From Spirochaetes bacterium GWE1_32_154 (GTDB lineage: Bacteria; Spirochaetota; GWE2-31-10): a stretch of 64,000 nucleotides of DNA. Under the pieces are notes generated by a model, which was not told the DNA's origin, made no database searches, and saw only the letters and a program-made list of their open reading frames with translations. Within the stretch, counting starts at the first letter, position 1. Each line of letters opens with the position of its first letter. Positions 11,685 through 19,929 of this stretch are shown one piece after another. The translations under genes were made by a program, and so were the position numbers. The stretch lies in NCBI GenBank assembly GCA_001829315.1, contig MIAY01000038.1, positions 1 to 64,000 of the forward strand. The letters run 5' to 3'.

Positions 11685-13409
11685 TTACTCCTCAGGGTAT
11701 TGTTTTTGAATGGTAAAGAATTCATCAATGTTGTTGATTAAAACATCAACAATTGCGGGGTCAAATTGCTTGCCCGATTCTTCTATTATGTATGATATTA
11801 CTTTCTCTTTATCCCAACCTGCTTTATAAACTCTTTTTGCAAGAAGTGCATCAAATACATCAACTAATGAAACAATTCTTCCATAAATTGAAATGTCGTC
11901 CTGTTTCTTTTTATTTGGATATCCTTCACCATCCCATCTTTCATGATGTTCTAACGCAATTAGTGCTGCAATTTTTAAAAGATCTCTATTTGATTTTGAT
12001 AAAATCTCATGGCCAATAAGTGTGTGATTCTGAATGACAAGTCGCTCTTCATCGGTTAACACTGCCGGTTTATGGAGAATCGTATCCGGTATTGCAATTT
12101 TTCCTATATCATGAAGGGGAGAGGCATCTCTTATAAGTTCTGATGTATTCTGATCTAAACCTAAAAGTTTACTGAGCAGGTAACTATAATATGAAACACG
12201 AATTACGTGATTGGCTGTTTCTTTTGACCGGTTTTCAACAACTTCACTTAATGTAAACATGATTTCTTTTTGGGTTACCCGTAACTCATCATATAATCTT
12301 TGTAATTCTAATTCAGTATTTTTTCTGTGCTCAATTTCAATTTTTAAGTCTTTTACTCTTTCATTAACCATAGATTCTAAGTTATTTCGCATCATTCTGA
12401 TAGCTTGTTCAGACCTGCGAATTGTTGTAATGTTATGGAAAATAAATACAAATCCAATAGGTATATTATTTTTACTGGTTATTTTGTTTGATTTTATTTC
12501 AAATATATATTCTTCATCATCAAAGGCCAATGTAATTTCATTATTTGTATCATCAAGAATATGGCCTGGTAAATCTTTCATATATTTAAAATCGGAAAGA
12601 TTTTTCTTAATAGTTATACCAAAAAGGTTATTTGCCATTCGATTGTGATCAATAATAATAAATTCATCATCTGTTATAATCACCGGGTCATCAAAGTTTT
12701 GTACAATATCTTTGAGAAAGTCAGGTATGTAATCAAGTGCTTTAAATTTAAATGCAGCAATAAATATAAAGAATGCAGAGCATCCGAAAGCTAATGGCAT
12801 ATTATTTCTAAAATTATATATTTTAATATTGCTTATGGATAAGAATGCTATAATTATTTGAATAAAAAAAGAACAAAAAATTAAGATTGATTTTAATTTA
12901 TGTTCATTTTTTGATTTAACAGCATTAATTAAAAGAAGATAAAAAACATAGGATGATAGAATAAAAATAAAAAAATATGTTAATTTGAGTATAATGCCGA
13001 ATTGATACGTCAGATCAATAAAATTATTTTTGAAAATAATCATTTTTTTAATACGAAATAAATTTTCATATAAGGGAATAAATTTAAAAAAAGATATAAC
13101 TAAAAATACCAGAGTGAAAAAAGATAAAAAAAATATATTCATTTTATTAAACGATTCAGTATATGCATATGTAAAGGCTAATAATATTATACAATAAAAC
13201 AATAATGCTATAAATTGAATATCATCATATAGTATTTTAAATTTAAATGTTGATGCAAGTGCTTCATAAATAAAAAAATGTATCATAATCGCTTGAGAAA
13301 AAGCAAGAATGCTCATTAAAATTGCTGTCAATGATTTTCGTTTCGTTAAAGAATAGATGCCAAGTGATAGAGAAAAAAAATATGACAAATAATAGGGGAA
13401 ATATTCCAT
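11685..13409 (-). CDS. Membrane HD-GYP c-di-GMP phosphodiesterase with PAS domain
   Basis: Residues 1-225 contain about seven hydrophobic segments, like the 7TM sensor found in some kinases. A PAS domain follows (about 232-335, IVQNFDDPVIITDDEF), then a coiled coil (about 335-380) and an HD-GYP domain (about 385-565). The catalytic set is intact: H401, H433-D434 (PLHDIGK), H462, H488-H489 and the signature HHERWDGEGYP with GYP at 496-498. The family hydrolyses cyclic di-GMP to GMP, and activity is likely from the residues. A GAGG site precedes the ATG. It diverges from lysS, and a perfect palindrome lies between the two genes. The sensed signal is unknown. Confidence 0.92.
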   Translation of the reverse strand: MEYFPYYLSYFFSLSLGIYSLTKRKSLTAILMSILAFSQAIMIHFFIYEALASTFKFKILYDDIQFIALLFYCIILLAFTYAYTESFNKMNIFFLSFFTLVFLVISFFKFIPLYENLFRIKKMIIFKNNFIDLTYQFGIILKLTYFFIFILSSYVFYLLLINAVKSKNEHKLKSILIFCSFFIQIIIAFLSISNIKIYNFRNNMPLAFGCSAFFIFIAAFKFKALDYIPDFLKDIVQNFDDPVIITDDEFIIIDHNRMANNLFGITIKKNLSDFKYMKDLPGHILDDTNNEITLAFDDEEYIFEIKSNKITSKNNIPIGFVFIFHNITTIRRSEQAIRMMRNNLESMVNERVKDLKIEIEHRKNTELELQRLYDELRVTQKEIMFTLSEVVENRSKETANHVIRVSYYSYLLSKLLGLDQNTSELIRDASPLHDIGKIAIPDTILHKPAVLTDEERLVIQNHTLIGHEILSKSNRDLLKIAALIALEHHERWDGEGYPNKKKQDDISIYGRIVSLVDVFDALLAKRVYKAGWDKEKVISYIIEESGKQFDPAIVDVLINNIDEFFTIQKQYPEE

Positions 13410-13442: not shown

Positions 13443-13483
13443 TGTAAATGACAATATCTTTTATAAAGATATTGTCATTTACA
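13443..13483. promoter_or_regulatory. Perfect 18-bp inverted repeat between divergent HD-GYP and lysS genes
   Basis: TGTAAATGACAATATCTT (13443-13460) and its exact complement (13466-13483) flank a 5-nt loop. It is not followed by T runs on either strand and lies between two divergent starts, so an operator or leader structure fits better than a terminator. Confidence 0.55.
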
Positions 13484-13557: not shown

Positions 13558-15666
13558 ATGGCAAACCTCAGTGATGAAAAAGAAATTAGAATAGAAAAAG
13601 TAAGTAAATTAAGAGAAGCTGGTGTAAATCCTTTTGTTGAAAGATGTGATAGAACACATTCTTTAACTGAGGCGAGAAAACTTGATATAGGTACAACAAA
13701 TGTAGAGCTTCGTGGTCGAATGATGTTAAAGCGTTCTTTCGGTAAGTTATTATTTGCAACCATTCAGGATTTTGATGAAAGAATGCAAATTTGTCTTAAT
13801 ATTAAAAGCATCGATACAGAACGATTTAAATTTTTTGATAAAATGATAGATGTCGGTGATTTTGTATGGCTAACCGGAGATATTTTCAAAACTGAAAAAG
13901 GTGAGATAACATTAAATGTTAAAGAATTTGTTTTGTTATCAAAAGCAATTCGTCCACTACCGGAAAAATTTCACGGTATTACTGATTTAGAAACAAAATC
14001 AAGACAACGATATCTTGATCTTATTATGGATTCTTCGACTAGAGATCGATTCAAAAAAAGATTTAAAATAATTACAACGATACGAAATTTTTTAAATGAT
14101 AATGACTTTTACGAAGTTGAAACTCCTGTTTTACAGGCAAAACCATCCGGTGCTTTAGCAAAACCATTTAAGACTCATCATAATGCTCTAGATATTGATA
14201 TGTTTTTACGAATTTCACCGGAAACGTATTTAAAACGATGTATTGCAGGTGGTTTTGAAAGGGTATATGAGTTCGCACGAAGTTTTAGAAATGAAGGAAT
14301 GGATCCAAGTCATTTACAGGATTTTACATTATTAGAGTTTTATGCTTCGTATTGGAATTATGAAGATAATATGAAATTCACTGAAGCACTTATTAAGAAA
14401 ATTTTAATGGATGTAAATGGCTCATTAATGTTGGAATATCATGGAACTAAAATTGATTTTTCAGGTGAATGGCCACGATACAGTTTTAGAGATTTGATTA
14501 TTAAACATGCTAATATAGATATTGATACATGTCCGACAAAAAATGAGCTTGTAGCTCAAATAAAAGCAAAAGGTATAAGTTTAGAGGGTGTTGATTTTAA
14601 TAAAATCGGACGAGGGAATTTAATTGATCAGCTTTATAAAAAAGTAGCACGACCTTCAATGATTAACCCGCAATTTCTTATACATCATCCGCTTGATTTG
14701 TCCCCATTAGCCCGAAGAAATGATGCAAATCCTGATATAACAGACCGTTTTCAATTAGTTGTTAATACATGGGAAATTATTAATGCTTATTCAGAACTTG
14801 TTGATCCGATTGATCAGAGGGCTAGATTGTTAGATCAGGCAAAGGCGCGTGAAACAGGTGATGATGAAGCTATGATTATGGAAGAAGATTTTATTCAGTG
14901 TATGGAATATGGAATGCCTCCGATTTCCGGTTGGGGAATGGGGATTGATAGGTTTGTAGCCCTTTTAACTAATCAGGAAAATCTTCGTGAAGTAATATTA
15001 TTTCCGCTTATGAGACCTCTTGAATATGATACAAATGGTGAAGAAGTTCAATCTGATGGTTCTATAGTTTTAAAAGCTGATGCTCAAACTCCTATGGATT
15101 TGAAGGAGCTTGGCGTTTCTTATGAAAAACTGGATAGTTTTTTTGCAGAAAAAGTTAAAAAAGAAAGTCTTATTAATCATAGTAAGGCGTCAGCAGCAAT
15201 TATGAGAGGAATAGCAAAAAAATTTGGGCTTAATGAAAAAAATTATTATTATCTTGGTTTATTACACGATATTGACTTTGATGAAAATGATTCTATGAAA
15301 GATCATGCAACTATCGGAGCAAAATGGCTTAAAGAGTTGGGTATGGTTGATACTGCACTCCATGCAATATTATCACATAATGAAGAAGGTTCCGGTGTTA
15401 AAAGAGAAAACTTTCTTGATTATGCCCTTACTTCAGCAGAAACAATTTCAGGTTTTATTTCAGCTGTAGCAAAAATTTATCCTGATAAAAAAGTTACATC
15501 AGTAAAGGTTAAAAGTGTAACAAAACGTATGACTGATAAAGCTTTTGCTGCTAATGTAAATCGGGATGCAATTTTATTATGTGAAAAGATAAATGTTCCT
15601 CTTGAAGAGTTTGTTAATCTTGCAATCAATTCAATGGTTGAAATAGGCAATGAAATAGGTTTATAA
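13558..15666 (+). CDS. lysS: Class II lysyl-tRNA synthetase fused to C-terminal HD hydrolase-type domain
   Basis: Residues 1-487 are a full class II LysRS: OB-fold anticodon-binding domain (about 45-130), motif 2 FRNEGMDPSH (243-252) and motif 3 GWGMGIDRF (458-466). A linker (488-515) leads to an extra domain (516-702) with HD-superfamily residues: H541 (NHSKA), H570-D571 (LLHDID), H583 (DHATIGA), H607 (LSHNE) and D621. Ordinary bacterial LysRS is about 500 residues, so the last 190 are an addition resembling free-standing HD hydrolases (COG2316-like). The frame is uninterrupted, so this is a real fusion. LysRS enzymes make diadenosine tetraphosphate; the HD domain could degrade it or another nucleotide, by inference. 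cinA follows 14 nt later. Confidence 0.92.
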   Translation: MANLSDEKEIRIEKVSKLREAGVNPFVERCDRTHSLTEARKLDIGTTNVELRGRMMLKRSFGKLLFATIQDFDERMQICLNIKSIDTERFKFFDKMIDVGDFVWLTGDIFKTEKGEITLNVKEFVLLSKAIRPLPEKFHGITDLETKSRQRYLDLIMDSSTRDRFKKRFKIITTIRNFLNDNDFYEVETPVLQAKPSGALAKPFKTHHNALDIDMFLRISPETYLKRCIAGGFERVYEFARSFRNEGMDPSHLQDFTLLEFYASYWNYEDNMKFTEALIKKILMDVNGSLMLEYHGTKIDFSGEWPRYSFRDLIIKHANIDIDTCPTKNELVAQIKAKGISLEGVDFNKIGRGNLIDQLYKKVARPSMINPQFLIHHPLDLSPLARRNDANPDITDRFQLVVNTWEIINAYSELVDPIDQRARLLDQAKARETGDDEAMIMEEDFIQCMEYGMPPISGWGMGIDRFVALLTNQENLREVILFPLMRPLEYDTNGEEVQSDGSIVLKADAQTPMDLKELGVSYEKLDSFFAEKVKKESLINHSKASAAIMRGIAKKFGLNEKNYYYLGLLHDIDFDENDSMKDHATIGAKWLKELGMVDTALHAILSHNEEGSGVKRENFLDYALTSAETISGFISAVAKIYPDKKVTSVKVKSVTKRMTDKAFAANVNRDAILLCEKINVPLEEFVNLAINSMVEIGNEIGL

Positions 15667-15680
15667 ATTACAGGTGAAAT

Positions 15681-16916
15681 ATGATAAGTGCATCAATTAT
15701 AGCAGTAGGTTCTGAATTAATGCGTGGTAAAATGGATGATACAAATTCAACATTTTTAGCCCGCTGGTTTGAGAGTAAGGGCATCAAAGTAATTAATCGT
15801 ATCAATGTTGAAGATACTGTTGATGCAATTAGAAGAGGTGTTGAATTATGTTCAAATGCTGATATTATTATTTCTACAGGTGGTTTAGGGCCTACTGATG
15901 ATGATGTTACACGAGATGGTTTTGCTGCGTATCTTGGAGTTGATTTAGTATTTAATGAAGATTCCTGGCAGGATATAGTTAAATTGTTTATTAAAAGAAA
16001 TTATCCAATGGCGCAATCTAATAAAAGACAAGCATTTATGTTTAAAAATGGTCACATGATACCAAATTCAAATGGAACAGCGCCCGGTTTGTATTATAAA
16101 TCAGATAATAAACTTTTTATTTTATTGCCCGGCCCTCCCCATGAAAATAAACCGATGATTGTTGATTCTGTTTACCGGTTATTAAATGAGTCTGGTTTTA
16201 TTAAGGGGGCAATAAATAGCAAAGTGTTTAGAATCTATGACTCCGGAGAAAGCACTATTGCCGATTTGTTTTCCAGTGTGAATAATCAGTATTTTGATGA
16301 AATTGGATATTATTTCTCGAATGAAGGGTATGTTGAGTTGCATTTCAGGAAGTATTCATTACATGATATTGTTGATTCAAAAGAGTTTATTGAGGCTTAT
16401 CGCGTCTATTTGCATCTTTTAGAAATAAATGCAATTTATTATACTGAGAATAAATCAATATCAGAAATAGTATTTAATAAATTACATAAAAGTAAAATGA
16501 CTATTACATTTGCTGAATCATGTACCGGTGGTGCTGTCTCAGCAGAACTTGTTAAGAATCCTGGTGTTTCTTCAGTGTTTAATGGAGGGATCAATTCATA
16601 TAGTAATCATGTTAAATCGCATATTTTAGGAGTTGATTCTAAGATACTGGAAAAGTACGGAGCTGTTTCTGAAGAAACCGTAAGAGAAATGGCGATTAAT
16701 GCAGTCAGACTTTTTGAAAGTGATATATCAGTTGCGGTAAGTGGTATAGCGGGACCTGATGGCGGAAGTGAAGAGAAACCTGTTGGTTTAGTATGGTTTG
16801 CATACTATATTAATGGTACTGTTATTGCTGAAAAAGAAGTGTTTAATGGTGATAGAGTAAGGGTTATACAGCGCACAACGAACAGGGTATTCAAAAGGTT
16901 ATCTCAATTGATTTAA
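15681..16916 (+). CDS. cinA: CinA-family nicotinamide-nucleotide amidase / damage-inducible protein
   Basis: Two-domain protein. Residues 1-170 are the MoaB/MogA-like COG1058 domain (STGGLGPTDDDVTRD near 70, LLPGPPHE near 152). Residues about 255-405 are the PncC amidase domain (FAESCTGGAVSAELVKNPGVSS, GIAGPDGGS, PVGLVWFA). Known members hydrolyse nicotinamide mononucleotide to nicotinate mononucleotide and ADP-ribose in pyridine-nucleotide salvage. The length of 411 residues is normal. AGGTGA precedes the ATG, and the gene is probably co-transcribed with lysS. A bidirectional terminator follows. Confidence 0.93.
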   Translation: MISASIIAVGSELMRGKMDDTNSTFLARWFESKGIKVINRINVEDTVDAIRRGVELCSNADIIISTGGLGPTDDDVTRDGFAAYLGVDLVFNEDSWQDIVKLFIKRNYPMAQSNKRQAFMFKNGHMIPNSNGTAPGLYYKSDNKLFILLPGPPHENKPMIVDSVYRLLNESGFIKGAINSKVFRIYDSGESTIADLFSSVNNQYFDEIGYYFSNEGYVELHFRKYSLHDIVDSKEFIEAYRVYLHLLEINAIYYTENKSISEIVFNKLHKSKMTITFAESCTGGAVSAELVKNPGVSSVFNGGINSYSNHVKSHILGVDSKILEKYGAVSEETVREMAINAVRLFESDISVAVSGIAGPDGGSEEKPVGLVWFAYYINGTVIAEKEVFNGDRVRVIQRTTNRVFKRLSQLI

Positions 16917-19338: not shown

Positions 19339-19929
19339 GTGGATAGTGATGTTAAATTATTAAAAAAATACTTGAAAAATAAAAATAGAATTTCTCACAG
19401 TGTATCTACAGCAGAATATATGCGTTCCTTTGCAACGTTTTATAGTATAGACAAAAATAATGCATATTTTTGCGGACTCTATCACGATATTGGTAAAGAA
19501 TTATCCGGTGATGAAATATTGGCTTATGTTGATACATTTAATAATCGTGGTATTTTTTCTATCGATTACCTGGATTTTAAAAAGAAATATCCTTCATTAC
19601 TTCATGGTGTTGCTTCTGCAGAAATTCTTATTAGTGAAATTGGTTTGTCGGATAAGGATATAATAACAGCAATATGTTCACATACTTTAGGAGCCAGGGG
19701 GCTTTCGAGGCTGTCTAAATATACTTTTATGATGGATTTTTGCGAGCCGTTACGAAGGCATGAGGATTCTGTAAAGGTTTTTAAGATTCTTACCTCTGAT
19801 AAAAACTTTGACAGGGCATATTTAATGACATATCACTATCAGTTGAAAGAATTGTTAGACAACTACAAAGAAATTTGTTTAGAAACTGTTGAAGGATATA
19901 ATGAAGCTAAAATGATCTCATGTCCTTAA
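19339..19929 (+). CDS. yqeK: YqeK-type HD phosphohydrolase (probable Ap4A hydrolase)
   Basis: HD-superfamily protein matching the YqeK family, whose characterised members cleave diadenosine tetraphosphate symmetrically to two ADP. Motifs are SHSVSTAEYM (metal His), LYHDIGKE (HD pair), LLHGVASAEIL and CSHTLG, all in the usual order within 196 residues. Translation starts at GTG 19339, 6 nt after the exonuclease stop; GGAGAG (19325-19330) lies at the end of the upstream gene, so the two genes are probably co-translated. It is of interest next to the LysRS-HD fusion 4 kb upstream. YqeK is often beside nadD or rsfS; neither is here. Confidence 0.85.
   Translation: MDSDVKLLKKYLKNKNRISHSVSTAEYMRSFATFYSIDKNNAYFCGLYHDIGKELSGDEILAYVDTFNNRGIFSIDYLDFKKKYPSLLHGVASAEILISEIGLSDKDIITAICSHTLGARGLSRLSKYTFMMDFCEPLRRHEDSVKVFKILTSDKNFDRAYLMTYHYQLKELLDNYKEICLETVEGYNEAKMISCP

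Follow-up and report, generated by a model that had tools for sequence, protein, structure and literature searches.

What does an HD phosphohydrolase-type domain do at the end of a housekeeping lysyl-tRNA synthetase (LysRS)? The question is posed by the lysS gene of Spirochaetes bacterium GWE1_32_154, which lies at positions 13558-15666 on the forward strand of the window (the whole 64,000-nucleotide stretch of DNA analysed here). A reading of the sequence alone had described this gene as one 702-codon frame that joins a class II LysRS (residues 1-487) to an HD domain, and had suggested that the pairing could limit or tune an alarmone, with Ap4A in view, or edit a by-product. The description holds in its coordinates and domain limits, and our analysis leads us to propose that the HD tail probably serves in binding a ligand, and not in cleavage alone. 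We found no report of a LysRS-HD fusion in the open-access literature searched.

A complete LysRS carries a C-terminal HD domain

The fusion gene is a single uninterrupted frame, all parts of which lie on the forward strand. Its LysRS part (13558..15018) is complete, with an OB-fold anticodon-binding domain and the class II core, and residues 7-487 cover the full lysine--tRNA ligase model (NCBIfam NF001756, 594.6 bits, cut-off 468). The fusion protein resembles bacterial class II LysRS (NF001756/TIGR00499) in this full-length match and in its invariant core positions, with 56 LysRS positions invariant in fused and unfused enzymes alike, but it differs from ordinary LysRS in the added C-terminal HD domain and in belonging to a separate clade, at about 39-46% identity. 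LysX likewise combines a LysRS with a second enzyme, but its partner, lysylphosphatidylglycerol synthase, is a different one and is N-terminal, and the fusion protein scores 468 bits against a LysX model cut-off of 742 bits.

A linker (residues 488-512, 15019..15093), which is modelled with low confidence and varies in length among relatives, leads to the helical HD domain (residues 513-702, 15094..15663). The structure model of residues 488-702 has a mean pLDDT of 92.9; that of the full-length fusion has a mean pLDDT of 61.7, which is too poor to place the HD domain relative to the LysRS. Residues 539-613 score 38.1 bits against Pfam HD (cut-off 22) and 31.8 bits against NCBIfam HDIG (cut-off 27.6). 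The earlier assignment to the HD superfamily is confirmed by the H..HD motif, the Pfam match above its cut-off, the helical model and nearest folds that are themselves HD proteins. An assembly or frameshift artefact was ruled out by the identical arrangement in many genomes, including seven others of the window's order.

The fusion occurs in two phyla and probably arose once

The fusion had been expected in other genomes and, when listed by phylum, is found in 12 Spirochaetota and 14 Planctomycetota, many of the genomes being metagenome-assembled. The spirochaete cases come from 393 genomes searched. Eight of the nine genomes of the window's order have the fusion, the ninth (G006) having no LysRS match anywhere in its assembly, and it recurs in two further spirochaete families. 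At E<=1e-50, none of the 12 spirochaete genomes has a LysRS match besides the fused gene, and on this basis the window protein very likely aminoacylates tRNA-Lys. A Planctomycetota record with the fusion (L050) surfaced in a scan of named genomes; in its order, HD and LysRS stand in one frame in 13 of 17 genomes and the HD domain is at a contig edge in 2 more. A further case is the Planctomycetota genome G496. No LysRS-HD fusion was found in the sampled genomes of Elusimicrobiota, Sumerlaeota and Thermodesulfobacteriota. Frames of 260-540 amino acids that also seemed to fuse this HD family to other sequence were judged, on reading, to be spurious extensions upstream, mostly in GC-rich frames.

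In a tree of the LysRS part, all 25 fused enzymes tested fall in one clade (support 100/100), which is clearly separated from the ordinary LysRS of these phyla and also holds nine unfused members. The Planctomycetota group is nested in spirochaete diversity (94/90 on the branch that unites it with unfused spirochaete members), a placement suggestive of transfer between phyla. For the HD part, where 190 residues resolve little, the data do not reject a grouping of all fused domains in one clade (p-AU 0.525). As one LysRS clade contains both fused and unfused members, the simplest reading of these trees is that the fusion happened once, long ago, and was later lost in places and passed between phyla, and a single origin appears likely; two or three independent fusions are possible. 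In one genome (G010; L191, L192), the match of the HD-less LysRS of this clade starts at residue 92, and another fragment, at a different place in the genome, covers residues 6-196. This split gene is either broken or an assembly error.

The HD domain has a putative dinuclear-type ligand set, probably closed by a glutamate

The six-residue pattern H..HD..H..H..D is diagnostic of a dinuclear HD site (PMC8177086). YqeK binds one Mg through His29, His58, Asp59 and Asp135 and the other through Asp59, His91 and His117 (PMC11857287). Five of the six residues are present in the fused domain in the form that the pattern gives: His541 (15178..15180), a putative metal-A ligand; the HD doublet His570-Asp571 (15265..15270), in which Asp571 lines up with YqeK's bridging Asp; and His583 (15304..15306) and His607 (15376..15381, with Asn608), putative ligands of the second metal. 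The sequence-only reading had listed these together with D621. Its first five residues stand, but the D621 position is Gln, Glu, His or another residue in most free-standing relatives, and Glu628 (15439..15441), which replaces the usual Asp and is invariant in 45 relatives, is the likeliest sixth ligand. The ligand set of the window protein, with the H..HD..H..H pattern probably closed by Glu628, is apparently intact, and alignment with YqeK through H541, H570-D571, H583 and H607 suggests that the putative ligands would cluster. A conserved basic stretch (Lys644, Ser653, Lys656, Arg657 and Arg669; 15487..15564) persists also where metal ligands are lost and probably contacts phosphate or nucleic acid.

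The nearest relatives of the domain are stand-alone HD proteins of about 185 residues. These proteins, found in Bacteroidales, Thermodesulfobacteriota, Planctomycetota, spirochaetes and others, resemble the fused domain from end to end (41-49% identity) and have the same invariant residues, but they lack a LysRS and do not lie beside lysS: no such linkage was seen in 74 loci with flanks of up to 8 kb. The family, which may correspond to COG2316, is without a known substrate, as had been said of the free-standing relative. It comprises two groups, an E-type with Glu628 and Asn608, to which all the fusions belong, and a sister D-type with Asp628, and profile comparison unites them as one family (E 3e-51). 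Among solved structures there is no clear sequence relative of the HD domain (best E 0.02). A fold search with the HD model gave no match to YqeK at E<=0.001; the nearest solved folds, all distant, are the PgpH HD domain, the beta subunit of GlyRS and YqeK. Viral relatives were absent by sequence, and none was convincing by fold. A defence-system identity was set aside, there being nothing beyond a weak similarity to the Cas3 HD domain.

One planctomycete lineage keeps the domain after loss of two putative ligands

In 11 Planctomycetota genomes, which form one lineage and so probably record one evolutionary event, His541 is replaced by Gln and Asp571 by Asn, each change being present in 11 of 11. 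Nine of these are complete fusions and two are cut by contig ends, one of them still attached to a LysRS fragment. The changes are absent from all 123 other free-standing domains. Of the positions with 97% conservation or more in intact fused and free E-type domains taken together, only M658 and the end residue G701 also differ in the degenerate domains; H570, D573, H583, H607, N608, E628, S653, K656, R657 and R669 are unchanged. By alignment with YqeK, the replaced residues occupy the positions of a metal-A ligand and the bridging Asp, and hydrolysis has therefore probably been lost.

The degenerate HD domain is nevertheless under purifying selection about as strong as that on the LysRS: in five gene pairs, dN/dS is 0.16-0.27 over the HD part and 0.13-0.26 over the LysRS part. 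Because selection has been kept although ligand positions have been lost, hydrolysis is probably not what maintains the fusion, and the fused domain probably has a use that needs none. Limiting or editing a by-product through hydrolysis is thus unlikely as a general reason for the fusion.

The fused domain is not a YqeK

The TIGR00488 model confirms the yqeK gene that had been noted at 19339-19929 (78.8 bits, cut-off 70.15). It does not find the fusion protein, and the identification of the HD domain as a YqeK was rejected. Their likeness is at the level of the superfamily (hhalign, 112 shared HD-core columns): both have an HD core and the dinuclear H..HD..H..H.. pattern, but the fused domain has Glu for the final Asp, a different C-terminal half and no lysine in the HDxxK position. 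This lysine, Lys62 of S. pyogenes YqeK, lies three residues past the HD doublet and is catalytic (PMC11857287); its position is Phe574 in the fusion and V, Y, F or I in relatives. A canonical YqeK occurs alongside the fusion in six of the eight fused genomes of the window's order, and none scores above the cut-off in the fused genomes tested in the two other spirochaete families and in Planctomycetota. A partial parallel is the mycoplasma NadD-YqeK fusion, in which the HD domain is proposed to correct its partner's mistakes (PMC9426524); it too joins an HD phosphohydrolase to a nucleotide-using enzyme, but both the enzyme and the HD family are different.

Possible roles of the fused domain

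The reading that we tentatively prefer, without calling it probable, is that the HD domain regulates LysRS by binding a ligand, which it would hydrolyse in some lineages and only bind in one. An old fusion placed a previously free-standing HD protein, with a ligand set of dinuclear type, at the C-terminus of a housekeeping LysRS, and the HD pocket would bind a phosphorylated compound, the likeliest being a nucleotide or a nucleotide-like tRNA end. Binding would modulate or assist the LysRS; the intact domains of spirochaetes and some planctomycetes would probably also hydrolyse the ligand and so reset the signal, and the H541Q/D571N lineage would be a binding-only pseudo-enzyme. Against regulation, the domain is dispensable in the nine clade members that lack it. 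A more specific version, in which LysRS in two phyla has acquired its own nucleotide sensor that reads a phosphorylated signal and tunes lysylation, resetting itself by hydrolysis in most lineages and turned into a receptor that only binds by the paired H-to-Q and D-to-N change in one planctomycete lineage, is doubtful as a whole. If regulation is the role, an HD domain on an essential tRNA synthetase would link a nucleotide signal, or the state of tRNA, directly to translation; the natural intact and disabled versions would be a ready pair for separating binding from hydrolysis, and the fusion would offer an entry to a widespread HD family without a known substrate. The main rival to the regulatory reading is that the domain is an extra tRNA-binding module that contacts the acceptor or elbow, a role already suggested for the HD domain in GlyRS beta. 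In heterotetrameric GlyRS, the HD doublet of the beta subunit is replaced, yet mutations in the HD cavity affect aminoacylation (PMC8464048), which makes GlyRS beta a precedent, under the regulatory reading as well, for an HD domain that matters to the tRNA step after losing its catalytic residues. GlyRS beta is also among the nearest folds (rank 5; Foldseek E 7e-3, TM 0.50 by query, 14% identity), although it is a different synthetase with a different HD family, and the spirochaete LysRS-HD proteins keep their ligand residues. Retention of the basic stretch in intact and degenerate forms fits tRNA binding, but the same positions are as conserved in the free-standing family, which shows no tie to tRNA enzymes, and most fusions have invariant ligand residues, which points to catalysis; we regard this role as rather doubtful.

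The domain could instead act as an enzyme. LysRS is a known maker of Ap4A, and an HD domain that hydrolysed Ap4A or another LysRS-made dinucleotide would limit an alarmone at its source. The window protein nearly fits the dinuclear six-residue pattern (PMC8177086) with which YqeK cleaves Ap4A, and the lack of a YqeK above cut-off in the other fused groups tested speaks for such an activity. However, the proposed link to Ap4A is weakened by a likeness to YqeK at superfamily level only, the missing lysine, the YqeK already present in most fused genomes of the window's order, the free-standing relatives unlinked to lysS, and the selection maintained on the 11 fusions without two of the ligand positions. 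It is possible for the intact forms, where it is not specially supported, and unlikely overall. In some CCA-adding enzymes, the HD domain acts on RNA ends that carry a phosphate or cyclic phosphate, and the dinuclear-type ligand set of the intact forms would suit a comparable editing or repair of tRNA or adenylate, for example at a tRNA 3' end; with the same ligand positions lost in 11 fusions and no tRNA-repair genes seen in the gene context, we consider this improbable. The least credible role is one in which the two genes were merely joined and the HD domain, with no dependence on LysRS, acts on whatever substrate its free-standing relatives have. The variable linker and the retention of the free family's invariant residues in the intact fused domain agree with independence, but the fusion has been maintained over two phyla, and the degenerate lineage keeps the domain though catalysis has probably gone.

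Gene neighbourhood

Upstream of lysS, and divergent from it, is a gene for a membrane-sensor protein of HD_5/HD-GYP type (11685-13409) with a 7TM histidine-kinase-type region, a weak PAS match and an HD_5 domain. A 19-pair inverted repeat between the two genes (13443-13483) is scored as a two-way terminator and could be an operator instead. Downstream, cinA (15681..16916, forward strand), encoding an NMN deamidase or MoCF-like protein, begins 14 bases after lysS; on the same strand, it directly follows or lies two genes before the fused lysS in seven spirochaete loci (the window, L029, L031, L034, L036, L037 and L193).

The free-standing HD gene adjoins molybdenum-cofactor genes in seven Bacteroidales loci (L054, L056, L066, L091, L093, L101 and L112), which come from related species and are weak as evidence of function; the neighbours are a MOSC-MoCF fusion and, in some loci, also moaC or a mobA-like gene. 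In two loci of one spirochaete genus (L042 and L043), a free-standing D-type HD gene lies near genes that by eye resemble those for a nicotinamidase and an alkyl-DNA methyltransferase.
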